This document shows, piece by piece, positions 743-60,962 of a DNA stretch of 64,000 nucleotides. Where the stretch lies: positions 50,316,390 to 50,380,389 of the forward strand of contig NC_068576.1 of the NCBI RefSeq assembly GCF_025698545.1. The letters run 5' to 3'. Source of the DNA: Gossypium raimondii. Taxonomy: Eukaryota; Streptophyta; Magnoliopsida; Malvales; Malvaceae. How positions within the stretch are numbered: the first letter of the stretch is position 1; every line of letters begins with the position of its first letter. Made by a program: the position numbers and the translations under genes. The notes under the pieces were generated by a model, which saw only the letters and a list, made by a program, of their open reading frames with translations, was not told where the DNA came from and did no database searches.

Positions 743-758
743 CTAGGTGTTCTTGAGC

Positions 759-3700
759 ATGGCAACAACAAATTCTGCTGCTTCTGACTCGGTTGAATTG
801 AATGGCTCTGTTTTTGGTGCGGATCGGGTGGTGAATTCGCTTCCTCGGCATGAAGTAGTGAAGCTTGATGAAGGAACTTTTCTTCAATGGAAGCAACAAG
901 TTAGGTTTATTACTAATGGCTATGAGTTGTTTGGATTTCTTGATGGATCTATTTCTGCGCCGCCGAGATTTGTGCAAGCAACGGATGGTGCTCTTGTACT
1001 CAATCCGGCGGCATCCGTTTTTCAGCAACAAGATAATCTTCTTACTTCGTGGCTCCTCTCCACCATAAGTTCGACTATTGTGTCTTCTTTTATGGATGTT
1101 CAATCGGCATCTGATGTATGGAACACAGCGTTGGCGATGTTCGCGGCCGATATAGATCAACGACAGTCAAGATTGCGTCATGATCTTCACTCTCTCAAGA
1201 AAGGGAGCTTGTCGATCCGCGACTATGTGGCAAAGCTAAAAAGTTTGTGTGCTCTCTTGGAGTCGTCTAGAACCACCATCTCGGTGGCGGAGCGGACGGC
1301 AGTGTTACTTGCGGGCCTTCCGTCTGAATTTGAAGGTGTTGTATCTTCGGCCTCGTTGTCCTCTACTCCTTTGCCGTTTCAGCGTTTGGTGGAAGCCTTG
1401 ATCGAGTGTGAGAATCGGCATGTTCAAACAACTCAAGAGGTGGTGTATGCTGCTAACTTGGTGGAAGATGAGTCCACGGAAGGTTCTACAAGAGGAGGTC
1501 GTTCGGGGCTGCGTGGCCGTAGGAGGAACTTTCGGCCGCGTCTTCAATGTCAGATCTGCTCCCGTTTTGGTCACGTCGCTCAGAGGTGCTATTACCGGTA
1601 CCACCATGACGATTCATCGTCGATGCAGGTTCAATTGCCGAACCCTCGTGGTTCTGGAGATGGTGGATGGTCTTCAAAATCGAATACAAGACCTAGGATT
1701 TCCAACCTTGGTCAAAATTATTATGGAAATAATTTTGGTCAAAATTGTTTTGGGGTTGGTCAAAATAATGGTGTTTCTGGTCAAAATGTGTGTGCTGATG
1801 GCTATAATGGTTTTCTGGAACAACGTGCAGGAAATAATTTTGGTCAAAATTGTTTTGGGGGTGGACAAACTAATTGTGTTTCTGGTCAAAATGTGTGTGC
1901 TGATGGCTATAATTGTGCAGGACCGAATGTTGGGCTACATGGATGGCCTAGGCCAGGTAGCCGTGAGTTTAGACCACCTACTAATGGGCCGCATGATGTT
2001 GGGTCACCTGATGGAATTAATGGCAATTTTGGTCCCATTGATATTGGGCCAAATGCTCCCCTTGGACCGAATGCTCCTATTAGGCCCACTAATCCTATGT
2101 TGAATCATGTGCAGCTTGGTTCTTCTACACCGACCGGTAATGCTGCAGTTCCATGGCGCACTAAGCCGCGTGCTCGGGTGTTTTCAGCGTCAAATCCATG
2201 TTTTGGGCTTCCTCGGTTGGGCGATCTTCATGCGTCTGACTCTTCTGATCCGTCCGTTTCGGGTTCGCACATAAATTCTACTCAATATGGAGTGAGTGGG
2301 GATGAGTCTGACTCGCCAGTTCCTGGAACGGTTGGGACATCATCCTGGTATCCCGACTCTGGTGCCAGCAATCATGTGTGTCGTGATTCTTCAGCCCTGC
2401 ATAATACCGTTCCTTACTCAGGTACGTCTTCTATTTTAATGGGCGATGGTACACCTGCTATGATATCGTCTATTGGTCAAGGTGTGTTGCCGACAAGGTC
2501 TAGGTTGCTTCGGTTATCTAATGTTTTGTGTGCTCCATCCATTCAGAAAAATTTATTGTCAGTCTCACAATTTGCAACTGATAATGGGGTATTTTTTGAA
2601 TTTCATTCTACGTACTGTGTGATTAAGGACAACGTGACTCAGGAGATTTTGATGAAGGGGCGTATTCATAATGGACTCTATCAGTTTTCTCTGCCTGATG
2701 GTTCTATTCCTCGTATGTCTCATCCGTCTGCTGCTCAAGTAGAATATTCTACTCAACATGCTGAAAGTCAGGTGTTTTCGCTATGGCATAAGCGACTTGG
2801 GCATCCGTCGTCGAATGTTGTTAAGAATGTTTTAAATAAATGTCAATTTCGTATGAATAAAACTGCTTTTAATGATGTTTGTACTGCTTGTAAAAAGGGC
2901 AAGTTTCATAAGTTGCCGTTTACGGTTCCACTACTGAATATACTGATTCTTTCTCGTTGGTTGTATCGGATGTATGGGGACCTGCGTCAGTTGCCTCTAG
3001 TAACAATTGGTACTATGTGTCGTTCATTGAGATGAGTTCTCGGTTTACTTGGGTGTATTTAATTCTGCAAAAATCTCAGGTTGTTACGTGTTTACTCAGT
3101 TTCAGAAACTTATTCACACTCAGTTTGGTAAGACCATAAAGCAGTTTCAGAGTGATGGTGGTGGGGAATATCGCGCGTTGGCATCAACTTTAGCTTCTCA
3201 AGGCATTGTCCATCGTATTTCGTGCCCACATACTTCTGAACAAAATGGCGTTGCCGAGCGTAAACATCGGTACATTGTGGAAATGGGCCTTACTCTTCTA
3301 GCTCAAGCCGGACTGTCAATGGAATTTTGGGCATATGCGTTTACATGTGCAGTTCACTTAATAAATCGACTTCCCACGCCAGTGTTAGATGGTAAGACTC
3401 CATATAGTGTTCTTTATGAGTGTGAACCTACGTATGATCATTTACGTGTTTTTGGATGTTGCTGCTATCCGTATCTGCGCCCGTTTCAGCGTCACAAGTT
3501 AGAGTTTCGTTCTCAACCTTGCACATTCTTGGGTTACAGTCCTTGTCACAAAGGGTATCAATGTCTTTTGCCTGATGGTCGTGTTGTTGTATCTCGTCAT
3601 GTGGAGTTTTATGAATCCCGATTTTTGTCTCCGACGTCTCTGTCACGGTCCACTCGGGAGGTGAGTACTGTATCTCCTTGTTTTCCTGTTGTTTAGAAAA

Positions 3701-5607
3701 AGTCTTCTTGTCAAGGGAACTCAGTTGCTGATCCTGTTTGTCCGTATACTGTGACTGGGACTTTGAGTCCTCAGAATGAAGTAGGGGCTACTCCTACAAA
3801 TTCTAACTGTCATAATACTCCGTCTTTGGATGTGTCTTCGGTTCCTCGTGATGGAGTAGGTAGTTCTCATAGTGGTTCAGTGCACTCTGGAAATCAGGGT
3901 CCCACACCTGTTGTTACGATTCCGTCTGTTTCTACAGAGCCAGAAATTTCTGTACCTACCACGAATGTTCATCCCATGACCACTCGGTCAAAAGTTGGAG
4001 TTTTTAAACCCAAGGTACTTGCTATTGAAGTTGTCGAACCGTCTACGATTGAAGAAGCTCTCACTAGCTCGAAGTGGCAGACTGCGGCTCAAACTGAGTA
4101 TGATGCCCTGATTCGTAATGGTACATGGGAACTTGTCCCTATGCCATCAGGTCGCAATGTTATTGGTTGCAAGTGGCTGTTTAAAGTCAAGAAAAATCCG
4201 GATGGTACAGTTGACCGGTACAAAGCTCGTTTGGTTGCAAAAGGCTGCTCGCAAGTCCCGGGTTGCGATTTTCAAGAAACATTTAGTCCTGTTGTAAAAC
4301 CTGCTACTATAAGGATTATCTTGTCGATCGCGGTTACTAAAGGATGGTCGCTTCGACAAGTTGATGTCAACAATGCCTTCTTAAATGGTGATGTGGATAG
4401 TGAAGTGTTTATGCAGCAACCTCCGGGATATGTTCAGCTTGGGTTTGATGGGAGACCATTGGTTTGTCGCTTAAAGAAGACTTTATATGGTTTGCGTCAG
4501 GCTCCACGAGTTTGGTTTGAGAAGTTGAGAACGTTTCTTCTAACAGTTGGGTTTGTTGGTTCGAAGTCAGATGCCTCTCTGTTTGTTCGATTTCACTCAG
4601 GGTCTATTCTCTATGTTCTTGTCTATGTTGATGACATATTTATTACTGGTGATCTGTCGTCGTCTATTGACTAGTTTGTACAACTTTTGAATAATGAGTT
4701 CTCGTTGAAAGACATGGCTGAGTTGCATTATTTTTTGGGTGTTGAGGTTACCCGATCCTCTTCTGGGAGTCTTCATCTATGTCAGAAAAAGTACATCCGG
4801 GATATGTTGAAATGTAGTGGGTTGGAGAATGCTAAAAGTGTTCATACGCCCATGATTAGCTCGTCACATATTTCTAAGAATATTTCTAAGAATGACGGGG
4901 ATCCTTTGTCGGATCCAACTGAATATAGGAGCCTGGCTGGTGCGTTACAGTATGTGGTTCTTACCAGACCTGATATTGTATATGCGGTTAATAGGGTTTG
5001 TCAGTTCATGCATTGTCCGACCACAGTTCATATGGTTGCTCTTAAGAGGATATTACGGTATTTGTCTGGTACTCTCGATTTTGGCATTATTTTTCGTCGG
5101 TCTGATTGTTTGTCTCTGGTTGGGTTTTCGGATGCGAACTGGGGGTTGGACTTCGATGATCGGCGATCTACTACGGGATATTGCATATTTTTTGGATCTA
5201 ATCCTGTATCTTGGTCATCGAATAAGCAGCAAGTGGTGTCTCGATCTACGGCTGAGGCTGAATACCGTAGTCTTGCTGCTGTCACTAGTGATGTTTTATG
5301 GTTGATTTCGTTACTGCAGGAGTTGCGTATTGTGTCTGTTTCTCCGCCTAATATTTGGTGTGATAGTTCCAGTGCAGTTGCAGTTGCTGCCAATCCTGTT
5401 CTACACTCCAAATTTAAACATGTGGAGTTAGATTTATTCTTTGTGCGTGAGAGGGTTGCCGATGGTTCTATTTTGGTCGGGGAAGTACCTGCGTCCGATC
5501 AAGTTGCCGATGTCTTAACTAAGCCTCTTTCAGTTTCGTGTTTTTCTCGATTCAGAAATTTTCTTCGAGTCTTTTCAGTGGAGAATGTGGATGCATGTTT
5601 GAGATAA
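759..5607 (+). pseudogene. Copia gag-pol polyprotein, broken by two frameshifts and two stops
   Basis: The start is taken at ATG 759, the first ATG after the primer-binding site. Gag comes first, with one zinc knuckle (CX2CX4HX4C, around 1548-1590). Next come the aspartic protease motif DSGAS (around 2355), the GAG-pre-integrase segment with a WHKRLGHP motif (around 2785), and the integrase with DVWGP, SDGGGEY and EQNGVAERKH. Reverse transcriptase has YVDD near 4625, and RNase H has DANWG and AEAEY. The frame shifts near 2935 and near 3090, both inside integrase. In-frame TAG stops sit at 3694-3696, between integrase and reverse transcriptase, and at 4672-4674, inside reverse transcriptase. 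The final codons and TAA stop lie inside the 3' LTR. Confidence 0.93.
1728..1922 (+). repeat. Tandem duplication inside gag (105-bp unit)
   Basis: A 105-bp, 35-codon unit starting at 1728 is repeated from 1833, with the second copy slightly shortened. The encoded stretch is rich in Gly, Asn and Gln with recurring FGQN and SGQN motifs, and lies between the zinc knuckle and the protease. The length is a multiple of three, so the frame is kept. Confidence 0.85.
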
Positions 5608-11306: not shown

Positions 11307-13450
11307 ATGGCAAGTTACAATCAAGGATGTTTAATCTTGGTTGGGATTTTGGTGACACTGAGTTTACCATATTCACATGCCTTTTGGAGAAATGAAAATA
11401 AGATACAAACTGCTGTTTTTCTATCACCTAAGTTCGTGCTCGGACCAGGATCTGTGGAAAATAGGTTCTATTACAACGTCGACTTTCCGAAAGGTCATAT
11501 TGCGGTGAAAAGTTTTGATGCAGAAGTAATTGACGAGGCCGGGAATCCTATTCCACTGCACGAGACGTATTTGCATCATTGGGTTGTTGTTAGATACTAT
11601 GTACGTAAAGGTGTGGAAATATCAGAGTTTGATGACCCTAGAAAGTTTAACGAGTCGGACTATATTTCTGGGAGAAACAGTGGGATATGTCAGAATCTTG
11701 GTCAGTTCTTTGGCCTTGGGTCTGAGACACGGAAAACTTCAACTCATGTTCCCAATCCATATGGAATAGAAGCCGGTAATCCTGCTGAGATTCCTTCAGG
11801 ATTTGAGGAGCAATGGATGCTTAATGTTCATGCAATTGATACAAGGGGTGCTGAAGACAAGTTAGGATGTACGGAATGTCGTTGTGATCTGTATAATATT
11901 ACAGTCGATGAATATGGAAGACCTTTGAGACCTGACTATAAAGGAGGCTTGTTATGTTGTTACGATCATACACAATGCAAGGTAAAACATGGGTTCGAGG
12001 CTGTTAGAAGAGCCCTTTACCTTAGATACACTGTGACGTGGGTTGATATGGATACGTCCGTCTTGCCTGTTAAAATTTATATATTTGATATTACCGATAG
12101 TTGGAAGAGGAGCCGCAGTTCAACTGGGATTATAGCAGAGCACGAGTGCAAGGTATATGAACTATTTATGTGCTGTAAGAGGCAAAGTCAATAATTTTAT
12201 TTTGGAAGAATGACATAAAATTATAAAAATTTGAAGGATTAAAAATGAAAAAATTTCGTTTATTCAAAAGCTAAAAAGTTGAATGATTTGTGTTTTGAAA
12301 GGGGATAAAGGGAAAATTTTTCATTTAACTGCCTTCTCTTCTCCCGGCTTCGCCATTGTGCTGAAACACTATCGTTTTTTGTCAAATAGAATATTTTGTG
12401 AAATGTCATAATTTAATATCTTGGATGCAGGTTGAATATGATATTGGATCTTGCGATGCCACCGGAATGGGCGATGATGGATGCATCGACACCAGAAGGA
12501 TAAGCCTTGACATGCCATTTGGTGGTTATCTCATATATGGTGTTGCACACCAACATTCAGGTGGCACTGGTTCCGCTCTCTATAGAGAGGTATTGAAATG
12601 CCGTACGTCTACTTTACACTTTTATAGATCGTTTTAAGGGTATTTATGTTTTTTAAATATTTTGAGATTTAAACTCAAAATATTTTAATCTTTATTATCT
12701 CAATTTTATCATTTCAATCAATGACATATTTATTTTTTATGTCACTTTTTATGTTAATTTTTATAAATTTGTTATGTAAATTTTTTCATCCATATCTGGA
12801 TGTATTATAATTTAGTATATATACACACGCATATTCATGCATGCTTTAGTATATATACACACGCATATTCATGCATGCTATCTGATGACGATTATGAGCT
12901 GTGTTGAACTTCAGGATGGCCAACTTATGTGTTCTTCATTACCGACTTATGGGGAAGGAGAAGAACCTGGAAACGAAGCTGGTTACATTGTAGGAATGAC
13001 CACCTGCTATCCTAAACCCGGAACTGTGGAGATATCTAAAGGGGAGACTTTGATTTTGGAGTCCAATTACAGTAGAATCAGGCATCATACTGGTGTCATG
13101 GGGCTGTTCTACATTTTGGTTGCAGACGAGTTGCCCAAGCCAATGCACGCCTTGCACACTGTTGTTCAAGTAAGTTTCCGACTCTCAAATAGTAAAATTG
13201 ATGAAGAAAATTCATTAACCCAACCAGATGGTAACTCATTATTCACAAATATGTTCTTTTACTAATGTTAACTTCGATTAAACCAATGATGTTTTAATAT
13301 CATCTGATGCAGACACAGGACAGTATTATGGTGGTAACAATCCTCTGGGCTGCGGTAGCTTTGATCGGTGTGGTAGCTGTTATCGCTGTTGCGGTTCATT
13401 ATCGACTTAAACGCGAGGGAGAAGATGGCTATGAAGCAATTGGGATGTGA
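11307..13450 (+). CDS. SURNod19-family protein, copy 1 (465 aa); PHM-like copper monooxygenase fold proposed
   Basis: Four coding exons, all GT-AG: 11307-12152, 12431-12589, 12915-13169 and 13313-13450. The ATG at 11307 is chosen because it starts a signal peptide (residues 1-26), matches the start of copy 2, and lies after a conserved 5'-UTR acceptor; the upstream in-frame ATG at 11241 would fall in that intron. The protein resembles plant 'stress up-regulated Nod 19' proteins, whose biochemical role is not known to me. A C-terminal membrane helix spans about residues 425-450 with a short basic tail, so the Cys-rich body should face the ER lumen or apoplast. His90-His91, His175, His322-x-His324 and Met397 match, in order and local context, the six copper ligands of peptidylglycine/dopamine monooxygenases. 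Family call firm; copper role inferred. Confidence 0.92.
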
Positions 13451-14379: not shown

Positions 14380-16901
14380 TGTTGACACCATTTTTTGGAT
14401 GAAAAACGGGGTCGACTTGGGTTTGAAAATGAAAACAAAAAAAAGGAGTCGCCACCAATCTTTTTTTTATGAGGTGTGATCGGATCACCTTGAAAAGTTG
14501 TTGTTTTTAATAAATGATTTGATTTTATTAAAACAACGGTTTTGGTCCACGAAATTAAAAAAAAGTTCGGAGTCTCATTACATACGAGGAAGGATTAGCA
14601 CCCTCGACACGCCCAAAAATTGGTACCTAGTTGATTATTTAATGTCTTAGTGTCGAAAAGCTGAAAACTTTAAAGAATTTCAAAATACGATCCTTAAAAA
14701 AATTTCGAATGGCATGGATTAAAATTCAAGAGGATATTTAGCAATTTGGCTAAACGTGAAATCGAAACCCAGTACCTTAGGGCACGTTCCTCGAATTTCC
14801 AAACGCAAAATATTACCTTATTTTGAAAATTTTTGAAAAGGATATTAAGTCATTTGGTCGAATGAGAAATCGAAACCCAATACCGTATGGCACGTTCCTC
14901 GAATTTCCAAACGCAAAATATTGCCTTATTTTGAAAATTTTTGAAAAGAATATTAAGTCATTTGGTGGAACGAGAAATCGAAACCCAGTACCTTAGGGCA
15001 CGTTCCTCGAATTTCCAAATGCAAAACATTGCCTTATTTAGAAATATTTTCTTTTTTTGAAATATGATATTAATATGCAAAGTGGAATAATAAATATGAT
15101 AATGTGAACAAAAATAATATGAGCAAAAACAAATCATTCATGTATATACAATAACAAGTAAGAAAAATTAAAACATTAAAAGAAAATTATGGACATATAA
15201 ATAAATAAATAAATAAATGAACACTAAGTAAACAAGGATAATAAGGAATAAAATAAATAAAGCTATGAAAATATGAAAATATATGTAAGTATATATATGT
15301 ATACTTTATATATTTATGTAAAAGAGAAGAACTATGTATGTATAAACATATTACGTAAATGTATTCACGTGTATGCATATATATATAAAATATAAAACAT
15401 ATCTACATATTTTAAAATTATTATATAAATATATATATAAGTATATACATATACGTATGTGAATTAAAATATGAAAAGTATATATGTATAGGTATATATA
15501 TATATGAATCATAATATATAAAATACATATATAAAATAAATATTTTAAAAATGAAGAATATGTAAATATATATATTTATGAAAATAAAATACATACATAT
15601 AGATATGTAAATATGTACAAAAATCATACAATATACATAAAAATGTAGGTATGTATATAAGTATATATATATAAAAGCAATAATAATAATAATAATAATA
15701 ATAACAATAATAATATGAAATTTATTAAGAAAATAAACAAACTAACAAAAGGACTAAACTAAAAAAAATTAAAACGAAATTCGGGGTTAAATCTAAATAA
15801 AATCAAAGGGAAGGGACCACATTGAACACGCGAATAACATAGAGGGGCTAGAAGGGAAATTTTCCCTTCTCCTCTAAAACGCATAGCTTCAAAGGGGATT
15901 AAATTGAAATCTAAAATAAAATAAAGGGATAAATTTAAAGAAATAAAAAAAACTAATTGGGGAGGCATTAAAAAGCGGAGGGGCTAAAAGCGCAAATAGC
16001 CCCTCCAAGCATAACACGCGGATCCTCCCCTCGGGTCGGGTCACCGCGCGGGTCAAGGGAGCCTTAAACGTCGCCGTTTTGAAATTCCTATAAAAGCTAA
16101 ATTTTTTTTCTGCTATTTCATTTCTTAAAAAAAACATAAGAAAAAAACAAAAGGGTCTTCCCCTTTCTCTGCTAGGGTTCCAAACTTGGAACCCCGCCGC
16201 CGTCTGCCGCATCTCCATCGCAGCGCCACCAAGGACGGTGGCCGGAGTCGTGCGAGAAAAAGGGGTTTTTAACCCTCATCGTGTGGCATCCTTGAGATCT
16301 CAGATCTCTCAACCTGCGGGAAAGAGGGAAACCCACAACCCCTCTCGGACCCGAATCGGCGATGGAGGAGAAGCCCTCCGACGGCGCAACCACGGTGGTT
16401 CCTTGTGAGTCCCCTTTCCCTTTTTATTTTCTATTTAATGTACGAAATAAAGAAAAATAAATAAATAAAAAAGAAATGCGAATCTGATATCCAAGCCTTG
16501 AATCTGTTTTTTTGATTGTTTTATTTATATGAAAATGTTACAAAAGAAAAGAAAAGCCCCGATTGGTGATGAAGCCCCCATTACAAAGATGATATTCGGC
16601 CCCTTTATAGCCGATTTTGCTTCTATTTTTTTCTCTGCTATTGCATGTTTTCTTTTCTTTTGCAGGTCCTACAGGCGGCGGTTGGTGGCGATGGGACGTG
16701 CGGCGGTGGCAGCAGGTCAAGTGGCCGACCCTAGGTGCGGCGCACCTAGGGTTAGGGTTACTTTTTATTTTGTTTCTGATTTTGGCTGATTGGGTTAGTG
16801 GGTTGGTAGTTGGGCTTGTATTTGTTGGGCTTGGGTAGATTTAGGTGGGTTTGGGTATTGTTTGGGTGTATTGGGCTCTGGGCAAAAAATGGGCTTGTAC
16901 A
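14380..16901 (-). repeat. 3' LTR (element orientation) of the Tat-like Gypsy
   Basis: On the plus strand it begins TGTTGACACC and ends GGGCTTGTACA. It is near-identical to 24026-26552 apart from single-base changes and small indels. Internally it has three direct repeats of a block ending GGCACGTTCCTCGAATTTCC (about 14750-15020), a long AT/TATA-rich stretch (15060-15720) and a GC-rich part. A CTATAAAGGG box is at 16601-16610 on the minus strand. Confidence 0.93.
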
Positions 16902-17029: not shown

Positions 17030-17614
17030 CTACTGTGTCTTGACGCTTCAATCCACTCCACTGCACTTCAACAAGATCCGACTTGTAGTTTCAATCTTCT
17101 TTGCAGCAACTTTAGGGGGACGAGATTCGTGGTTTTAGTCTGTCCTACTGCAATGTCAGGGAGATAAGACTTGTAACTTTAACTGCAACTTCAGAGGTAT
17201 AGGCATTGGCGCTTCGACCCACTCCGCAACGTCGGAGAGATAGAATTACTGGCTTCAATGTACTCCACTGTAACCACAGGGAGGTAAAACCTGATGCGAT
17301 CTACTCTCGTAACCCGGATAGATAAGATCCTTTGTTTTAATCCGCTCTACTGTAATCTCAGGGAGATAGGATTACTAGCTTCAATCTGCTCCGCTGTAAT
17401 CTCAGGGAGATAAGACCTGATACGATCTTCTCTACTGTAACTTCAGAGGGATAAGATCCTTTATTTTAATCCGCTCCACTGTAACCTCAGGGAGATAGGA
17501 TTACTAGCTTCAATCTGCTCCGCTGTAATCTCAGGGAGATAAGACCTGATACGATCTTCTCTACTGTAACTTCAGAGAGATAAGATCCTTTATTTTAATC
17601 AGCTTCACTGCAAC
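17030..17614. repeat. Decayed about 44-bp tandem monomers with a 129-bp higher-order period
   Basis: Units resembling 'gggagataggattactagct' plus 'tcaatctgctccgctgtaat' recur every 43-44 bp. The phrase GATCCTTTRTTTTAATC recurs at 17326, 17455 and 17584, giving a 129-bp period made of three monomers. The array decays leftward. It is non-coding and lies between the pol remnant and the 3' LTR of the element. Confidence 0.75.
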
Positions 17615-18730
17615 CGATGGAGGCAAGGCTTTGTTTTGATCTGCTCCGTTGTTAATGTAGGAATGCAAGATTTGCTATCTTCAATCAGCTCCACTATAAC
17701 CGATGGAGACAAGGCTTTGTTTTCAATCTGCTTCGTTGTTAACGCAGGAAGGCAAGATCTGTTATCTTCAATCAGCTCCACCATAACCGAGAGAGGCAAG
17801 GTTTGTGTCTTCGACCTGTTTCGCTGTCAATGCAGGAAGGCAAGATCTGTTGTCTTCAGCCAGCTCCATCACAACTGAGAGAGGCAAGGTTTGTGTCTTC
17901 GACCTGCTTCGCTGTCAATGCAGGAAGACAAGATCTTTTATCTTCAACCAGCTCCATCACAATCGAGAGAGGCAAGGTTTGTGTCTTCGACTTGCTTCGC
18001 TGTCAATGCAGGAAGGTAAGATCTTTTGTCTTCAACCAGCTCCATCACAACCGAGAGAGACAAGGTTTGTGTCTTCGACCTGCTTCGCTGTCAATGCAGG
18101 AAGGCAAGATCTATTATCTTCAACTAGCTCCATCACAACCGAGAGAGGCAAGGTTTGTGTCTTCAACTTGCTTCGCTGTCAATGCAGGAAGGCAAGATCT
18201 TTTGTCTTAAACCAGCTCCATCACAACCGAGAGAGGCAAGGTTTGTGTCTTCGACCTGCTTCGCTGTCAATGCAGGAAGGCAAGATCTATTATCTTCAAC
18301 CAGCTCCATCACAACCGAGAGAGGCAAGGTTTGTGTCTTCGACCTACTTCGCTGTCAATGCAGAAAGGTAAGATCTTTTATCTTCAACCAGCTCCATCAC
18401 AACCGAGAGAGGTAAGGTTTGTGTCTTCGACCTGCTTCGCTATCAATGCAGGAAGGCAAGATCTTTTATCTTCAACCAGCTCCATCACAACCGAGAGAGG
18501 CAAGGTTTGTGTCTTCGACCTGCTTCGCTGTCAATGCAGGAAGGCAAGATCTTTTATCTTCAACCAGCTCCATCAAAACCGAGAGAGGTAAGGTTTGTGT
18601 CTTCGACCTACTTCGCTGTCAATGCAGGAAGGCAAGATCTTTTATCTTCAACCAGCTCCATCACAACCGAGAGAGGCAAGGTTTGTGTCTTCGACCTGCT
18701 TCGCTGTCAATGTAGGAAGGCAAGATCTTT
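17615..18730. repeat. 88-bp tandem array (about 12.7 copies), a dimer of 44-bp monomers
   Basis: Unit starts fall every 88 bp: 17615, 17703, 17791, 17879 and so on to 18671. Each unit splits into two diverged 44-bp halves, one with GGCAAGGTTTGTGTCTTCGA and one with GGCAAGATCTTTTATCTTCA. The first two copies are more diverged. Because 88 is not a multiple of three, the long reading frames across the array rotate through all frames and are artefacts. Only scattered single-base differences separate most copies, suggesting recent amplification. Confidence 0.92.
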
Positions 18731-24025: not shown

Positions 24026-25316
24026 TGTTGACACCATTTTTTGGATGAAAAACGGGGTCGACTTGGGTTTGAAAATGAAAACAAAAAAAAGGAGTCGCCA
24101 CCAATCTTTTTTTTATGAGGTGTGATCGAATCACCTTGAAAAGTGGTTGTTTTTAATAAATGATTTGATTTTATTAAAACAACGGTTTTGGTCCACGAAA
24201 TTCAGAAAAACAGGTTCGGGAGTTTGTTACGCACGAGGAAGGATTAGCACCCTCGATACGCCCAAAAATTGGTACCTAGTTGATTATTTAATGTCTTAGT
24301 GTCGAAAAGCTGAAAACTTTAAAGAATTTTAAAATACGATTAAAAAAAAATTCGAATGGCATGGATTAAAATTCAAGAGGATATTTAGCAATTTGGCTAA
24401 ACGTGAAATCGAAACCCAGTACCTTAGGGCACGTTCCTCGAATTTCCAAACGCAAAATATTGCCTTATTTTGAAAATTTTTGAAAAGGATATTAAGTCAT
24501 TTGGTCGAATGAGAAATCGAAACCCAATACCTTAGGGCACGTTCTCGAATTTCCAAACGCAAAATATTGCCTTATTTTGAAAATTTTGAAAAGGATATTA
24601 AGTCATTTGGTGGAACGAGAAATCGAAACCCAGTACCTTAGGGCACGTTCCTCGAATTTCCAAACGCAAAACATTGCCTTATTTAGAAATATTTTCCTTT
24701 TTTTGAAATATGATATTAATATGCAAAGTGGAATAATAAATATGATAATGTGAACAAAAATAATATGAGCAAAACAAATCATTCATGTATATACAATAAC
24801 AAGTAAGAAAAATTAAAACATTAAAAGAAAATTATGGACATATAAATAAATAAATGAACACTAAGTAAACAAGGATAATAAGGAATAAAATAAATAAAGC
24901 TATGAAAATATGAAAATATATGTAAGTATATATATGTATACTTTATATATTTATGTAAAAGAGAAGAACTATGTATGTATAAACATATTACGTAAATGTA
25001 TTCACGTGTATGCATATATATATAAAATATAAAACATATCTACATATTTTAAAATTATTATATAAATATATATATAAGTATATACATATACGTATGTGAA
25101 TTAAAATATGAAAAGTATATATGTATAGGTATATATACATATGAATCATAATATATAAAATACATATATAAAATAAATATTTTAAAAATGAAGAATATGT
25201 AAATATATATATTTATGAAAATAAAATACATACATATAGATATGTAAATATGTACAAAATCATACAATATACATAAAAATGTAGGTATGTATATAAGTAT
25301 ATATATATATAAAAGC

Positions 25317-39075: not shown

Positions 39076-40827
39076 ATGGCAAGTTATAATCCGGGATGGT
39101 TAGTTTTGGTTGGGATTTTGGTGACGTTAAGTTTACCATATTCACATGCCTTTTGGGGAAATGAAAATAAGATACATACTGCTGTTTTCCTGTCACCCAA
39201 GTTCGTGCTCGGACCAGGATCCGTGGAAAATAGGTTCTATTTCAATGTCGACTTTCCGAAAGGTCATATTGCCTTGAAAAGTTTCGATGCAGAAGTAATT
39301 GATGAGACCGGGAATCCTGTTCCACTGCACGAGACGTACCTGCATCATTGGGTTGTTGTTAGATACTATGTACGTAAAGGCGTGGAAATATCGAAGTTGG
39401 ATGACCTTAAAAAGGTTAACAGGTCGGACTATATTTCTGGGGGAAACAGTGGGATTTGTCAGAATGGAATTCTTAGTCAGTTCTTTGGCCTCGGGTCTGA
39501 GACACGGAAAACTTCAACTCATATTCCCGATCCATATGGAATAGAAGTCGGTAATCCTGCTGAAGTTCCTTCAGGGTTTGAGGAGCAATGGATGCTTAAT
39601 GTTCATGCAATTGATACAAGGGGTGCGGAAGACAAGTTGGGATGTACAGAATGTCGTTGTGATCTGTATAATGTTACGGACGATGAATATGGAAGACCTT
39701 TGAGGCCATACTATAAAGGAGGATTGTTATGTTGTTACGATCGTACCCAATGCAAGGTGAAACATGGGTTTGAGGCTGTTAGAAGAACCCTTTACCTTAG
39801 ATACACTGTGAAGTGGATTGATATGGATAGGTTCGTCTTGCCTGTTAAAATTTATATATTTGATATCACTGATAGTTGGAAAAGGACCCCTAGTTCAACT
39901 GAGATTAATGCAGAGCACAAGTGCAAGGTAGATGAACTATCTCGTTTATGTGCTGCAACACCATTTCTGTTTTGTCAAATAAAACTTCTTGTGAAATATC
40001 ATCATTGAATACATTTGATGCAGATTGAATATGATATTGAATCTTGTGATGCCACTGGATTGGGCAATGATGGATGCATCGACACCAAAAGGATAAGCCT
40101 TGACGTGCCGTTTGGTGGTTATCTCATATACGGTGTTGCACACCAACATTCAGGTGGCACTGGTTCTGCTCTCTATAGAGAGGTATTGAAATGTCTTATT
40201 TCTGCGCATCACTTTTATACCATTATATAATGTATATGTATATGTATGTATGCATACATGCGATCTGATGATGACGAAAAAGTGTCTGTTTGATTTTGGT
40301 GACTTTGAGGATGGCCAACTTATGTGTTCTTCATTACCGACTTATGGGAAAGGAGAAGAACCGGGAAACGAAGCTGGTTACATTGTAGGAATGACCACCT
40401 GCTATCCTAAACCCGGAACTGTGGAGATATCTGAAGGGGAGACTTTGATTTTGGAGTTCAATTACAGTAGAATCAGACATCATACTGGTGTCATGGGGCT
40501 GTTCTACATTTTGGTTGCGGATGACTTGCCCAAGCCAATGCATACCTTGCGCACTGTTGTTCAAGTAAGTTTCCAACTCCCAAATGGTGAACATTGACGA
40601 AGAAAATCCATTAGTCCAACTATTTCAAATATACAAATGTTAACTTCGATGAAACCTATAATGTTTTAATGAAACAATCATCTGATGAGACACAGGACAG
40701 TATTATGGTGGTAACAGTCCTTTGGGCCGCGGTAGCTTTGATTGGTGTGGTAGCTGTTATCGCTCTTGCCGTTCATTATCAATTTAAACGCGAGGGAGAA
40801 GATGGCTATGAAGCAATTGGGATGTGA
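39076..40827 (+). CDS. SURNod19-family protein, copy 2 (467 aa); PHM-like copper monooxygenase fold proposed
   Basis: Four exons, GT-AG: 39076-39927, 40024-40182, 40310-40564 and 40690-40827. Exon lengths equal those of copy 1 except for six extra bases in exon 1 (residues 130-131 region). Upstream of this ATG the frame is closed, which fixes the start. It has a signal peptide at residues 1-26, a Cys-rich body and a C-terminal membrane helix. The proposed copper ligands are all kept: His90-His91, His177, His324-x-His326, Met399. The exon 3 and exon 4 acceptors (TTTGAG and GATGAG) are weaker than the CAG acceptors of copy 1, so splicing may be less efficient. The introns are shorter than in copy 1. 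It appears intact, and is a local duplicate 27.8 kb downstream. Confidence 0.92.
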
Positions 40828-42956: not shown

Positions 42957-45075
42957 ATGGCCAGGGAATTGATTCGTCTTGATGACAAGCATATATCCGT
43001 GGAACAAATGAAAATGGTAAGTGTTAAATTTAATTTTTAAATATTATTTAGGATTTTTTATTTATGCAATTTTAAATAATTATTATTTTATTATTTGTTA
43101 TAAAAGTCTGTAGATCGGATATTGCAATGTTATATCCGCAATATGCATGGTCCTCCATCACTGTTGGTAGAGAATTACCTGCGGGAGGCGGGTTTTTGGC
43201 ATGTGGCGACAGTAGGCCGGGGATGCAAGTTGGACCTGAAACTCACCAGTGCGTTGATTGAGAGGTGGAGACCCGAGACGCACACATTCCATCTTCCATG
43301 TGGAGAGTGCACTATCACTTTGGAAGATGTCAATATGCAATTGGGGTTACCAGTGGACGGGTACGCAGTCACCGGGTCTATTCAATCTGGTGATTGGGGA
43401 GCGGTATGCTACGAGCTATTGGATGCTATTCCAGAGATTATTAACAGAGGTCGAATCAAGATGAGCTGGTTACGAGACACATTTCCGGATCCGGATGATG
43501 ATTCAACCGAAATAGAAAGAATCATATATGCTCGGGCATACATTCTTCAGATAATTAGAGGTTATCTGATGCCGGACTTGTCACGTAACCTCGTGCATCT
43601 AAGATGGCTGCTGAAACTCGTTGATTTTCGAGCAGTTGGTGAATTTAGCTGGGGCTCTGCCGTGTTGGCAACATTGTACCGGGAGATGTGCGGGGCGACA
43701 CGACCGAATAAAGCGAAAATCGGAGGTTGCTTGTCACTACTGCAGTCATAGACACGGTTTCGCTTTCCATTTTTACGTCCTCAAGTGGACCACCCGTATA
43801 CATTCTCACTTATAACGAGGTAAATTTTATATTATATTTTATAATTATTACATAGATTTAAAATATAATCGAATGCTAAAAATTTATTTAATTAGGTGGA
43901 ACCATCCGGCAAGTTATGCTCGATTACCTACCTCTCTTGAAGATATACGGCTTCTATTGGACCAACAGTCGGAAGCACAAGTAAGTCGATTGGTATTTAG
44001 TATTTAGTACATAACTAATATTTCCATCATGGTCATATAGTTTGAATGGACACCATACGAGGATCCGGCGATTCGGGCAGTAATTCCGAATGAGTACTTG
44101 CAAAATCCAAATGATTGACATGTGAAAGTCCCATTGGCCAACTTTGTGACTGTGGAGATGCACCAGTCGGACAGAGTATTACGGCAATTTGGATTCCGAA
44201 AATTGATTTCCGTGTCAGCTGAGGTGTTGGATGATCATCACAAAATCGACCTACGGTAATTGCATACAGATTGACCAAGATTCTAGTCACACTACATCCA
44301 GATGTGGGAAGATCGGTATGACTATATACCTACTCGGGAACCGATCATCGTTCCAGAGTTAGCGTGCGTGCCGGAATACATGTCATGGTTTAGGATCCAT
44401 GGCAAGTCGTATTTACTCTCGCCAGAGGAAAGGCAGCGGCAATTGCGTGTCCAAAGGGAACAACGTGGCCCTTTAAATCCAAGAAGAATGGACGACGGCG
44501 CAGGCTCATCAACGAGGCCCAAAAATTTATCCGGTCCATCATCAGCGCCCATAACTTCATCAGGCCCAGCAATAGCACTGACACAGTAACCCAACCCAAC
44601 AGTTCAACCAACGATACCCACGGCACAGCCTTTTTAGATGATGCTAGGTGCGTATCCTAACCCTTTTATGTATCCTAACCCTTATATGTTTCCTTTTCCT
44701 AGTTTCATGGCAGGTTAGAGTCAATGGCCCGGTTCATCTCCATTTTCGAATACGCTGAGTGGACCGCCGATGTATAGGCCATTGTCGTATGAGAGATCAC
44801 AAGAGGGGGCGTCGGGGAGCTCTTCTTTTTACCAAACCCTATCACCATATGAGTTTCAAACACCTTCGCCGTTGGTGATGCAAACACCTCCATATTCACT
44901 ATTCTACCAAGGTGGCTCATCGTCCCAACACCGATAACCAGATCCCCTACTGGATGAACCAGAATCCCCACCAGAGTAACCACAACCCCCGCCGGAAGTT
45001 GGGCAAAGAAGGAATCCAGCGCGTAACCGTTGACGACCGCCATGTGGCATTGAATCCGACAGGCACGGAGATTGA
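42957..45075 (+). pseudogene. Plant mobile domain (PMD, MAIN/MAIL-like) protein, broken
   Basis: Exons can be traced at 42957-43016, 43107 to about 43820, about 43895-43979, and from 44041 onward. The 209-codon open part holds the PMD core: GFWHV, LISALIERW-like LTSALIERWRPETHTFHLP, TLEDV..QLGLPV, and LMPDLSRNLVHLRWL. In-frame stops include TAG at 43749-43751, TGA at 44116-44118 and TAA at 44257-44259, with more after that. The tail (44460-45075) keeps a Pro/Ser/Gln-rich composition with further stops. PMD proteins of plants include MAIN and MAIL1, and PMD genes are known inside transposons. This copy is a transposon passenger and not a working gene. Confidence 0.85.
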
Positions 45076-47912: not shown

Positions 47913-48609
47913 ATCCCGACTCAGTTAATGCTTAATTAATTTTGATTGTTTAAAGAGCTTTGGGGGGGGGGGGGGGGTAATACGTGTTATCTCATCATCT
48001 GGACCTTGGGTTTTCAAAGTTGGGAATTTGAACCATACTCTTTGTTCTACCTTCAATAATCTTGCACGTGTATTTTCCCAATTTCTCTTTCTCCCCCTTT
48101 CCTTAGAACCGCCCTCTTTTTCCTTCCTTCATTCAATCCCGCTCTATTATTGTTTTCTTTGATTGAATTTGATATTTGGAACAGAAAAACAAAACACAGC
48201 ATTCAAACTACTTGGAATTCATCCCCATTCTTTTTTATTTTATAAGCCTGTTCCTTTGGAGTTTTGACTCTATTTTTCCTTCTTTTTTGACCTCCCCTAC
48301 CCCAAAGAAAAGTCTACCTCTTTTATTTCTCTCACTAATTCCAGTCAATTTTTTGCGTCCTTTCCTTAATTGATTCTTGGGTATATTATTTGTACCCCTT
48401 TTTTTTTAAAAAAAAGCAGGAATAAAGAAAAAAAAAGGCTACTTATTTATTTCTGTTGTTTGTTTCCGGTTTAATAAAAAAACAGATCTTCCCTTCGAAG
48501 CTCCATGATTGCAGAGAACAGTGCCGAGATACAACAACATTCACAGAAAAATAAGTGATTTTCGGATTAAAGGTAAATCGTAAACGTCATCGTTTTGGTG
48601 TTTGTTGTT
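47913..48609 (+). promoter_or_regulatory. Putative promoter and 5' UTR of the APC carrier gene
   Basis: Between the Mutator-like element and the start codon lies a G-run of about 15 bases (47962-47977), a G-box CACGTG at 48065-48070, and a pyrimidine-rich leader region. No clear TATA box stands out. Which sites act is unknown. Confidence 0.35.
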
Positions 48610-51470
48610 ATGCCTGGCGCAGCAGGGCAGGGCGTGGAACATGTAGGCTTGCCTAAAATGGAAGCGAAATCCGAAGCCGGATGTAGCAACCCCGTCAAAA
48701 AGAAGGGACCCGTCTCAATGGATCACGTTCTCTTGGCATTACGCGAGACGAAGGAGGAAAGGGATTTAAGGATTCGGAGTTTGTTCAACTTTTTCGATGC
48801 AGCCAATGTGGGATTCTTGGATTACGGTCAGATCGAAAAGGGTCTCTCGGCTTTGCAGATTCCGGCCGAGTATAAGTACGCCAACGATCTGTTGAAAGTC
48901 TGCGATGCAAACAGAGATGGGCGCGTGGATTATCAAGAGTTTAAAAGGTATATGGATGACAAAGAGCTTGAACTTTATAGGATTTTCCAAGCTATTGATG
49001 TGGAGCACAATGGGTGCATTTTGCCTGAGGAGCTTTGGGATGCGCTTGTTAAGGCTGGTATGCTATGCTCCTTTTTTATAGTATTTTTTATATTAATTTA
49101 TTTTTCTTGGTTTTGTTTTCTTTATCTTGACATGTTTGATTGGTGTGGTGAGGTAGTTGCATTAATTGGGGTTGATAGTGAAATCATTATAAAGTTTGCT
49201 TATAAATTGAGAAATTGTATGTTGCTTTCAATCTTCGTATTGCCCCTTTTGCTCCGAAAACTTGCCATCATTGTGAGATTGGAGAAATTGCTTTTGCAGT
49301 GTTTTGTAAATCAAACCGCAGTTTGGTACCTTTAAGGAAAGTAGATAGCCTTATTCATCCAAATGCATTAATTCGGTTGGCAATTTGAATTCTTCCGGTA
49401 TGTTTGTGTTGTTGGGGATAGGTTACATTGCGAGTTGTGGGAATGCGTTGTCTTGCTCAAATTTCTAAACCGAATTTGGAGTAACTTAAAGTTAGGTGTT
49501 AGGAAGCTGCCTCTGCTGGTTTGTTATGTAAAAGCCCATGTTTGCAATGGTGTATCTTGGGACTGTTCAAAACCCGTCTAATATTATGAGAGGTTATAAA
49601 GCTTCACATGCCCGATGTGTTTGCCATGGTGTTGAATATTGAACTTTTCATATTTTAGTTCTTAAATCAACAGAAACAAAAAGAAGGTAATTGGGAATTT
49701 ATTATTATTATTTTGATGTTCTCTTGTTCAAGTTTGTGTTCTTTTTCTTACAAATTATTCTGAGCCAAAGTTTTGCTTAGCTGAAATCTGAACGGTATGT
49801 CCATTCTATTTTAAAGGAGCTTCTAAAGGGTGTTTTCTTTCCTCCAAAATCTGTCAGACCAGAATCTGTATCTTTTTTTTTTTTTTTTTGTTTATATTTC
49901 CTTTATGAATGCATCTGCATTTGTTGAGGTGCCTCGGCAAATCCTACAGTTTGGCCAGTAAGGATCTATACAAGCTTTCAAGAGAGTTTGCCGCCATTTA
50001 AGGAAAGTGTTTGTCTGGCTTGATATCAAGAGACAGTTTCTTGTCAGTATGAAAGTTGTGTCAGTTTGTTTTTGCTGGATGCTGAGGGGCTGGTTGTTTC
50101 CATGGTTGTAATAACAGTTGTTTTCATCTTATAAGCCCTGGCAGTTTGTATTTTGCAGGGATTTGTATCGATGATGAGGAACTTGCACGATTTGTAGAGC
50201 ATGTTGATAAGGACAACAATGGAATTATAACATTTGAAGAATGGAGAGATTTCCTTCTACTCTATCCTCATGAAGCTACTATGGAGAACATCTATCATCA
50301 TTGGGAAAAGGTTTGCCTTGTAGATATCGGAGAAACAGCTGTTATTCCCCAGGGCATCAGTACACATGTTAAGAGAAGCAAGTATTTTATTGCAGGAGGA
50401 ATAGCCGGAGCAGCTTCTCGCACTGCAACTGCTCCTCTTGATCGCCTGAAGGTTGTTTTACAAGTGCAAACTACAAATGCTGATATTCTGCCAGCTGTAA
50501 GAAAAATATTGAAGGAAGATGGTATTTTGGGGTTTTTCCGTGGTAATGGGTTAAATGTTGTGAAAGTAGCTCCTGAAAGTGCTATAAAGTTCTATGCCTA
50601 TGAAATGTTAAAGACTGTAATAGGAGACAGTAGAGGGGATAAGAAGGGTGATATAGGTGCTAGTGGGAGACTTTTTGCTGGTGGAGTAGCCGGTGCTGTG
50701 GCACAATGTGCTATCTACCCAATGGATCTCGTAAAAACTCGATTACAGACTTGTGCTTCGGAAGGTGGAAAGCCTCCCAAGCTGGGGAAATTAACTAAGG
50801 ATATATGGGTTCAAGAGGGTCCTCGAGCATTTTATAAAGGTCTTGTGCCATCTCTTCTTGGGATTATCCCATATGCTGGCATCGACCTTACCGTCTATGA
50901 GACCTTGAAAGATTTTTCGAGGTCATATATTCTTCAAGATAGTGGTATTTATACTATCTGCCTCTCTTATTTTATGCTTGTTTTTTGCTCTTTTTCTTAT
51001 ATCTTCTTTTCTGGTTTTTCATTTTTCATTAATTTGTGTGTTTCTTCTGAATTTCTTACCCAATTTGCTTTCTGATGACTCTTTCTTCGTCTTATAGAAC
51101 CCGGTCCTCTTGTGCAATTAGGCTGTGGAACAATTTCTGGAGCTTTAGGAGCAACCTGTGTTTATCCTTTGCAGGTTATTCGAACGAGGTATGATTATAA
51201 TGTGTAGAAATTCTTTTTCTGGTCATTCAGGTTCATCCGTACATCATCGTAACTAGTTTCTTTTTTTGTTCTCACAGAATGCAAGCTCAACGCACTACCT
51301 CAGGTGTTGCGTATAATGGAATGTCTGACGTATTTTGGAAAACCTTTCGGAATGAAGGTTATAGAGGTTTTTACAAAGGACTATTTCCTAATCTTCTCAA
51401 AGTTGTCCCAGCTGCAAGCATTACATATTTGGTTTATGAGGCTATGAAAAAGAGTCTAGAACTTGACTAG
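48610..51470 (+). CDS. APC1: Calcium-dependent mitochondrial ATP-Mg/Pi carrier (APC/SCaMC type), 505 aa
   Basis: Four exons, GT-AG: 48610-49057, 50159-50944, 51098-51188 and 51278-51470. The N-terminal half has four EF-hands with loops at residues 63-74, 99-110, 130-141 and 166-177. Loops 2 and 4 are canonical, while loop 1 ends in Gln instead of Glu. The C-terminal half (from about 223) has three mitochondrial-carrier repeats with signatures PLDRLK (242-247), PMDLVK (337-342) and PLQVIR (about 435-440). Family members sit in the inner mitochondrial membrane and exchange ATP-Mg or ADP for phosphate under control of cytosolic calcium. The symbol follows the Arabidopsis family and its conserved neighbours; APC2 or APC3 orthology is not excluded by sequence alone. 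Confidence 0.95.
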
Positions 51471-58380: not shown

Positions 58381-60962
58381 ATGATGATGGGGCGTTTAGC
58401 TCTTCTTCTTCTCTTAGCTTTTGCGTCACTGCAGCTCTTTTGCTTCGCCGATGATGATAATAATGACGATGATGTGGTTTTTTTTTTTTTTAAATCTCGA
58501 ATTGGTGAAGAATATTTTGATATGTAAAATTTGAAAATAAGATTTCTTCTGTTCTGTTTTTAGGTTTTTTATGAATCATTTGAAGAGTCATTTGAGGGTC
58601 GATGGATCGTCTCTAATAAAGATGATTATAAAGGTGAGATTTTCTTATTTAATTTTATGGAACTCTTCATTGGGATGTTTACTTACGGATTGATTTTTAT
58701 CATTTTATAGTCTGATTTCTTCATGTTGTTTGTCCTGAAAACATATGCATAAAACCAAGATGAAAAATTGATCTTTGGGAAACTAGAGGGTACTTAATGA
58801 TTTTTATAATCTAACATTTATGGGATCCTTAATTTTGTTTTTAAATCATAAATTTGATGATCTCATTGACAATCAATATTTTGATGCGTTACTGGGAATT
58901 GCTAATGGAAACTAGATAAAGTATATGCTTTGTGATATGGATATGGTTTTAAAAGATAGATAGTTGTATGATGTTCATAATATATGTAGGGCTGGTAGCG
59001 TTGGGTGTAGATATTGATGTTGTTTTTGGAGCTGCAGGTTTATGGAAGCATTCAAAGAGCGAGGGCCACGAAGACTATGGTCTTCTGGTGAGTGAGAAGG
59101 CAAGAAAGTATGCAATAGTGAAAGTGGTTGATGAACCGGTGAGTCTGAAAGATGGAACCACCGTGCTTCAGTTCGAGACTCGGCTCCAGAGTGGAATCGA
59201 ATGTGGTGGTGCCTACATTAAATTTCTTCGTCCTCAAGAGGCGGGTTGGAAGCCTGAGGAATTCGACAATGAATCCCCTTACTCCATCATGTTTGGACCT
59301 GACAAATGTGGGACAACAAACAAGGTGCATTTCATATTTAAGCATAAGAATCCCAAGAATGGGGAATATGTTGAACACCATCTTAAATACCCACCTTCTG
59401 TCCCATCCGATAAGCTCACTCATGTCTACACTGCAACCTTAAAACGCGACAAAGAGGTTAAAATTATGATTGATGGAGAGGAGAAGAAGAAGGCAAACTT
59501 CTTAGCAGCCGAAGATTTTGATCCTCCACTTATCCCAGCCAAGACAATCCCTGATCCTGATGATAAGAAACCAGAGGATTGGGATGACAAAGAAAAGCTT
59601 CCTGATCCAAATGCTGTGAAACCGGATGATTGGGACGAGGATGCACCAATGGAAATCGAGGACGAGGAGGCGGTGAAACCAGAAGGATGGTTAGACGATG
59701 AGCCTGAGGAGATAGATGACCCTGAGGCAACCAAGCCAGAAGATTGGGATGATGAAGAGGATGGTGTGTGGGAACCCCCAAAGATGTATAACCCAAAGTG
59801 TGCAATAGCTCCTGGTTGCGGTGAATGGAAGAGGCCAATGAAGAGTAATCCTGCTTACAAAGGGAAATGGTCTCCTCCACTAATTGATAACCCCAATTAT
59901 AAGGGTGTTTGGAAGGCTAGGGAGATTCCAAACCCCAACTACTTTGAGCTTGACAAGCCTGACTTTGAGCCTATTGCTGCCATTGGTATTGAGATTTGGA
60001 CAATGCAAGAAGGAATACTGTTTGATAATATATTGATAGCTAAAAACGAGAAGGTTGCCAAGTCATATCGAGAGACCAAGTGGAAACCCAAGTTTGAGGT
60101 TGAGAAAGAAAGACAGCAGGCTGAGGAAGAAGCTTCTGGTTTAGACTTCCTTGCAAGCATCAAGGTCATGCTTTTGCAAGTTTATTTATGGTATTATTTT
60201 TCGTTTACTCAATCTTGTAACATTTTAACTTAAAAGTTGGTGATTTCTTAATCTGCAGAGGAAGGTGTTTAATGCCCTATACCAGATTGCTGATATTCCT
60301 TTCTTAAGCAACTACAAGCCTCAAATTCTCGTAAGTTCACGTAATATGCTGTTTCTCATATGCAATATCAGTATTTCATTGGTGGAGAGCGGAAAAGCCA
60401 GAAAATTTTGTTAATTTTAAAAAATTTAAATGGTGGAGCCTACCAGCTCCCTCCTAGATTCGCGGATGACATCTGAATTTTGAGTTTTTCACTTTAGGAT
60501 CACATTAAGAAGGCTGAGAAGCAACCAAACCTCACCATGGGAGTCCTAGTCTCTACTGTCGCCATTATCCTCACGATTTTCTTGAAGCTCATTTTTGGTG
60601 GCAAGAATCAGGTTGGTCTATGTTTCTCTATTCTGCCGCTGTTTGTATATATGTTATTCAAGTTCTGATTTGACATTTGTCCGGAAATGTGCCCGACATG
60701 GATATGTTTAATACCCTTTTCAAGAATGCAAGGTCCTTTGAAAATCCTTGGAAGAATATATCCGTAATGGATACTTTAAGAACTAGGGTTGTTCTTATTC
60801 CCTTGGTTAATGCTTGTGCAGCAATGCCCAAGAATAGAAACGAAACCAGTACCCGTGGTCGCTGAAACATCAGATGATCAAGGAAGCGATGGAGAAAAGG
60901 TTGAAAAGGCAGAGAAAAATGAAGCTGCTGCTGCTGCACGACGAAGGAGGCGTGAAACATAA
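58381..60962 (+). CDS. CNX1: Calnexin, ER membrane lectin chaperone, 538 aa
   Basis: Six exons: 58381-58473, 58564-58633, 59038-60164, 60259-60330, 60498-60611 and 60822-60962. Residues 1-23 are a signal peptide followed by an acidic run. The lectin domain holds the Cys110-Cys145 pair and the [15 protein letters not shown] and [12 protein letters not shown] motifs. The P-domain (about 218-360) has four KPE/DxW-type repeats, then repeats of the [17 protein letters not shown] type with Cys309 and Cys315. A membrane helix spans about 466-488 and the short cytosolic tail ends RRRRRET. Calnexin binds monoglucosylated N-glycans on folding glycoproteins in the ER. Length and order match plant calnexins. 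It converges with the Tudor-SN gene. The exon 6 acceptor (GCAG at 60818-60821) is inferred from frame only. Confidence 0.95.

Follow-up and report, generated by a model that had tools for sequence, protein, structure and literature searches.

SURNod19 proteins of cotton as a probable plant branch of the PHM/DBM dicopper monooxygenase fold

The window analysed here, a 64,000-nucleotide stretch of Gossypium raimondii contig NC_068576.1 (positions 50,316,390 to 50,380,389 of assembly GCF_025698545.1), carries two copies of a SURNod19 gene. Structure prediction together with conservation supports the presence in SURNod19 of the copper-ligand set of peptidylglycine alpha-hydroxylating monooxygenase (PHM) and dopamine beta-hydroxylase (DBH, also DBM) in the corresponding fold. 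Since it shares both a predicted shape and the copper-holding residues with the animal enzymes of neuropeptide amide and noradrenaline formation, SURNod19 is probably a secreted copper oxygenase, and a copper oxidoreductase is the likely reading by analogy. We consider it probable that these proteins represent, in plants, a branch of the type II (uncoupled dicopper) PHM/DBM fold and act as secreted, apoplastic, ascorbate-dependent monooxygenases.

In the proposed mechanism, one copper (CuH) would be held on the N-domain by His90, His91 and His175 and the other (CuM) on the C-domain by His322, His324 and Met397 (residue numbers of the copy 1 protein). On the model of PHM and DBH, ascorbate in the apoplast would serve to reduce the two coppers and CuM would be the site of O2 binding; hydroxylation would take place at a C-H bond of a peptide or small molecule, CuH providing the second electron. 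Copper occupancy, ascorbate as the reductant and hydroxylation by SURNod19 are all carried over from the animal enzymes, for which cytochrome b561 is the usual ascorbate-linked partner. Cytochrome b561 proteins are also encoded in the cotton genome (14 exon-level matches).

Conservation of the proposed ligands and predicted fold

Conservation was assessed in an alignment of 212 proteins shorter than 600 aa, obtained from 219 distinct sequences after exclusion of seven longer tandem or fused models. The homologues were drawn from the best 120 of 973 and the best 120 of 950 SURNod19 protein matches; those with names are from flowering plants and some rows are unnamed. The six residues are near-invariant in the flowering-plant homologues covered. 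His90 and His91 are each His in all 208 ungapped rows (four gaps), His175 in 209 of 212 rows (three substitutions), His322 in 210 of 211 (one substitution, one gap) and His324 in all 211 ungapped rows (one gap), while Met397 is Met in 206 of 208 ungapped rows (four gaps, two other residues). The complete set is found in 199 of the 203 rows with a residue at every site, the nine other rows being gapped and mostly short models. One protein, P0028, has other letters at the His-His site in a smaller alignment and a gap there in the larger one. P0001 contains 16 His residues; 14 His columns hold at least 150 residues, and the seven of these above 97% are the five proposed ligand His, His64 and His393. 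His64 (11496-11498), in an FPxGHI motif, is kept in 210 of 212 rows, as conserved as the ligands, and resembles the RHHI stretch of DBH.

The predicted fold, taken from a structure model of an orthologue of copy 1 and compared by Foldseek and VIA, is the two-domain PHM/DBM double beta-sandwich. The best structural match is the catalytic core of DBH (PDB 4zel; 12% identity over the structural alignment), and agreement is closest with chain A of that entry, which has been described as closed (PMC6123673). Rat PHM (PDB 1phm and 6ala, among others) is another of the closest known systems. The N-domain alone ranks DBH and PHM first in VIA. The alignments end with model residue 408 on DBH 498 and residue 410 on PHM 327, so that Met397 falls on DBH M487 and PHM M314 if the last strand is ungapped. 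In the N-domain, the end pairs place His175 on DBH H333 or PHM H172 in four of seven DBH/PHM rows and miss it by one or two residues in the remaining three. The correspondence of ligands thus rests on alignment ends and profile alignment. The PHM ligands are H107, H108, H172, H242, H244 and M314 (PMC6123673). Two further residues outside the ligand set have counterparts in both animal enzymes: Cys128 corresponds to PHM C131 and Tyr401 to PHM Y318, the Tyr four residues after the Met ligand, and the same two residues pair with DBH Cys295 and Tyr491 in an unforced profile alignment. The DBH ligands we take to be H262, H263, H333, H412, H414 and M487, numbers that are consistent with the alignment arithmetic.

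The original prediction, made from the DNA alone, had recognized the ligands by their motifs, and its positions are correct (HHW from His90, NVH from residue 173 with His175, HQHSGG from His322, HTGVMG from His393 with Met397). The conservation and the double beta-sandwich on which it depended are borne out by the homologue alignment and the model, an unrelated fold not having been found. It erred in giving a TGEM context for the PHM Met, as rat PHM reads SSDEM before Cys315.

Weighing the assignment

A number of observations weigh against placing SURNod19 in this fold and chemistry. Pfam searches of the copy 1 protein at E values up to 10 gave only SURNod19, with no match to Cu2_monooxygen or Cu2_monoox_C, and both phmmer and profile searches of the PDB returned zero matches. 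The significant profile-profile match anticipated by the original prediction did not appear: hhalign of SURNod19 with PHM and DBH gave E values of 0.24-0.77 at full length and 0.065 in the best sub-range, which are not significant. Column-permuted profiles scored as high as or higher than the real one in 57 of 100 (DBH) and 56 of 100 (PHM) cases, and reversed templates scored higher. With PHM as the reference, four of the six ligands pair and His90/91 are misplaced. Masking of the ligand columns causes the register to be lost. TM-scores from Foldseek are no more than modest (0.36/0.31 and 0.35/0.50), and a Foldseek search with the N-domain by itself yields no significant match. Both members of a C-domain Cys pair of the animal enzymes are replaced: PHM C315 (DBH C488), which adjoins the Met ligand, by Gly398 (Gly in 203 of 212 rows), and its partner PHM C293 (DBH C466) by Ser385 in the hhalign alignment (Ser in 174 of 212). 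A few paralogues are without a proposed ligand. Among the 203 complete rows these are P0034 (His322 to Asn), P0244 (His175 to Leu), P0317 (His175 to Arg) and P0261 (His175 to Met and Met397 to Lys). Among the excluded long models, a motif scan found that the second half of pea P0003 reads HQN, and that NIMVID stands instead of NVHAID twice in Arachis P0325, which had no match to LHHW or TGVMG; the remaining five have the ligand motifs, some halves being partial. Localization analysis suggested the chloroplast, rather than secretion, for a Medicago ruthenica member (PMC9203031). Finally, the reported miR398 targets of soybean include a glycerol-3-phosphate transporter next to GmNod19, GmCSD and GmCCS (PMC7201782), and in neither cotton copy did a simple scorer find a site better than 30 shuffles. 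The miR398 link is therefore shown for legumes only.

The NIMVID change is common to P0325 (Arachis) and P0261 (clover), and this type is possibly an inactive legume form.

The register of the ligands was examined by unforced hhalign of the SURNod19 profile, which is shallow (Neff 2.2), with a profile of PHM plus DBH. Taking DBH as the reference gives pairs for the whole set of six ligands (H90/H262, H91/H263, H175/H333, H322/H412, H324/H414 and M397/M487). Fully permuted columns paired at most one ligand in 100 controls, and when the ligand columns were held fixed and the rest permuted, six of six were recovered in 0 of 100 (DBH) and 1 of 100 (PHM) controls. As permuted profiles match the real hhalign scores, we take only the register, and not the score, as evidence, and its loss under masking indicates that the ligands themselves carry much of the alignment.

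Convergence or artefact, in which a pair of jelly rolls has conserved His residues for zinc or for structure, would account for sequence profiles that do not rise above permuted controls and for the viral capsid jelly rolls that also appear in the Foldseek list. The capsid matches, however, have probabilities of 0.97 or less, the VIA separation is 17.4 vs 7.9, and all six residues lie in the same order and domain as in PHM and DBH; we regard this explanation as very improbable.

Copy 1 is a plain member of the SURNod19/MtN19 family PF07712, and differs from both animal enzymes in several respects. SURNod19 has about 70 extra residues between His175 and His322 (147, as against 79 in DBH and 70 in PHM). 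Pfam finds only SURNod19 in the protein, with neither the N-terminal DOMON domain that is typical of DBH and MOXD nor, in copy 1 (protein only), the PAL domain of PAM. On the substrate side, PHM Arg240, which binds the peptide carboxylate, corresponds to Val320 (Val in 190 of 212 rows) by ungapped offset, a position deduced across a gap in the hhalign alignment, and PHM N316 corresponds to Leu399, also by ungapped offset. With Val in place of Arg240 two residues before the first CuM His, the substrate is probably not a peptidylglycine. Given the lack of a Pfam copper-monooxygenase match, the replaced Cys residues and Arg240, the long insert, and the absence of PAL and DOMON domains, we file SURNod19 as a separate plant branch and not as a member of PHM, DBH or Cu2_monooxygen. 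The cotton genome search for Cu2_monoox_C and Cu2_monooxygen found nothing, but control genomes were silent too, so this does not show absence. NCBIfam, a library for bacteria and archaea, gave zero families, and among candidate bacterial and archaeal relatives none of 22 pattern matches was confirmed.

A protein of the wider PHM/PNGase F fold superfamily that works without copper, whether in hydrolysis (for instance in the manner of a peptide:N-glycanase) or in binding, is as improbable as convergence; PNGase F is a hydrolase without these copper ligands. The likeliest alternative, though still an unlikely one, is a copper protein of the PHM fold that is not a monooxygenase, its ligands serving only to bind metal for apoplastic copper storage, delivery, or superoxide or peroxide chemistry. 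Bean Nod19 is cleaved by miR398b (five of six clones in 5' RNA ligase-mediated rapid amplification of cDNA ends), and its level is lower under copper deficiency and, leaves excepted, higher when copper is in excess (PMC3882225). That source gives the locus both as Phvul.006G127300 and as.127400; P0259, which is PHAVU_006G127300, has all six ligands. This regulation, and the induction of SURNod19 by paraquat as a stress (PMC5894230), suit homeostasis equally well. The failure to retain the PHM substrate-side residues R240 and N316 also favors this alternative. Against a simple chelator, both separate sites are kept, including the Met ligand, along with Tyr401 (197 of 212 rows), which is beyond what chelation would need.

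Gene models, topology and neighboring features

The copy 1 gene encodes a 465-aa protein from four in-frame exons with GT-AG introns by spliced translation (Table 1), and matches SURNod19 PF07712 over residues 31-406 (E 7.4e-189, 627.7 bits, cut-off 25). Copy 2 (39076-40827) gives 467 aa with the splice sites chosen here, is 88.7% identical to copy 1 and has the same ligand motifs. It is LOC105764847 (P0006), whose annotated protein deviates where exons 3 and 4 begin. The G. raimondii genome has nine exon-level PF07712 matches at three loci, two in the window and one on contig C7.

Table 1. Features of the two SURNod19 genes, in window coordinates
Feature	Position	Strand	Remarks
Exon 1, copy 1	11307..12152	+	residues 1-282: signal peptide, N-domain, Cys-rich stretch, start of C-domain
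Likely signal peptide, copy 1	11307..11381	+	about residues 1-25; hydrophobic N-terminus by reading of the sequence
His90-His91 codons, proposed CuH ligands	11574..11579 (starts 11574, 11577)	+	PHM H107/H108, DBH H262/H263
His175 codon, proposed third CuH ligand	11829..11831	+	PHM H172, DBH H333
Cys-rich stretch, residues 183-234	11853..12008	+	C188, C191, C193, C217, C218, C224
Exon 2, copy 1	12431..12589	+	residues 283-335, with H322-Q-H324
His322-Gln323-His324 codons, proposed CuM ligands	12548..12556 (His starts 12548, 12554)	+	PHM H242/H244, DBH H412/H414
Exon 3, copy 1	12915..13169	+	residues 336-420, with H393 and M397
Met397 codon, proposed CuM thioether ligand	13098..13100	+	PHM M314, DBH M487
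Exon 4, copy 1	13313..13450	+	residues 421-465 and stop: hydrophobic helix, short tail
Hydrophobic stretch, about residues 425-448	13325..13396	+	likely transmembrane helix, then short charged tail; C-terminal end GYEAIGM
Exon 1, copy 2	39076..39927	+	splice sites chosen here
Exon 2, copy 2	40024..40182	+	splice sites chosen here
Exon 3, copy 2	40310..40564	+	splice sites chosen here
Exon 4, copy 2	40690..40827	+	splice sites chosen here

The Cys-rich stretch would be an insert between the two PHM-like domains, given its conserved Cys residues and the long His175-His322 spacing. Cotton SURNod19 is probably secreted and anchored by a single C-terminal helix, with the catalytic part predicted to face the apoplast. 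The structure model of the copy 1 orthologue has a helix at 415-457, and Arabidopsis NOD19 likewise has a predicted signal peptide and a C-terminal hydrophobic helix, with NOD19-YFP seen at the cell periphery (PMC10326430). Of the 199 intact rows, 64 have fewer than 20 residues past position 410 and hence no C-terminal helix (e.g., bean P0259; P0247, P0242 and P0274); lacking it, these forms may be secreted as soluble proteins. The helix-less kind is seen in legume rows such as the bean miR398b target P0259. A tomato SURNod19 protein has been listed among xylem-sap proteins (PMC7700171).

Between the SURNod19 copies, a tandem unit of about 107 bp occurs at both 14753-15050 and 24378-24695, some 9.6 kb apart, and a tandem array at 17582-18730 has 13.1 copies of an 88-bp unit (91% matches), several frames being open across parts of it. 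Elsewhere in the window are a Copia-type retroelement at 747-5607 (matches to gag and pre-integrase over 747-3035, and part of a reverse transcriptase over 4675-5607, the frames being different) and an open frame with a plant mobile domain at 43104-43751, which is probably transposon-derived. Pfam places neighboring genes within 48577-51075, 58953-60233 and 62483-62875, comprising EF-hand and mitochondrial carrier pieces, a calreticulin family protein and a Tudor-domain piece.

Literature and significance

SURNod19 genes are known as nodulin and stress genes, and the passages of the literature available to us give no biochemical function. Among the papers listed from open-licence PubMed Central (InterPro and AlphaFold DB labels lying outside this scope), none links Nod19 or SURNod19 to a copper oxygenase or to PHM or DBH. 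There, Nod19 and peptidylglycine had no co-mention, the only co-mention of Nod19 and dopamine was dopamine in a reference title, and MtN19 or stress up-regulated Nod with monooxygenase gave only unrelated table entries. The word copper is absent from the main text of PMC13355928, PMC9203031, PMC8753364 and PMC9462762, as is monooxygenase from that of PMC13355928. Copper does figure in PMC3882225 and PMC10326430, in the sense described above, and three times in PMC5894230.

Silencing of GmNod19-23 leads to fewer infection threads (PMC13355928), and turnip and soybean mosaic viruses are attenuated when NOD19 is lost or knocked down (PMC10326430). We tentatively suggest, while thinking it somewhat doubtful, that flowering plants, although the land-plant lineage is considered to have lost PAM, retain a widespread family of apoplastic dicopper monooxygenases as SURNod19/Nod19. 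In legumes this family would be under the copper-economy miR398, as are other copper enzymes that can be dispensed with. Its product, an extracellular small molecule or peptide bearing the hydroxyl group, would be what infection threads and potyviruses depend on when Nod19 is silenced. A copper active site would explain why a copper-saving miR398 cuts Nod19 in bean, the co-targets CSD and CCS being copper proteins, and such a concrete site makes the SURNod19 proteins a testable enzyme.
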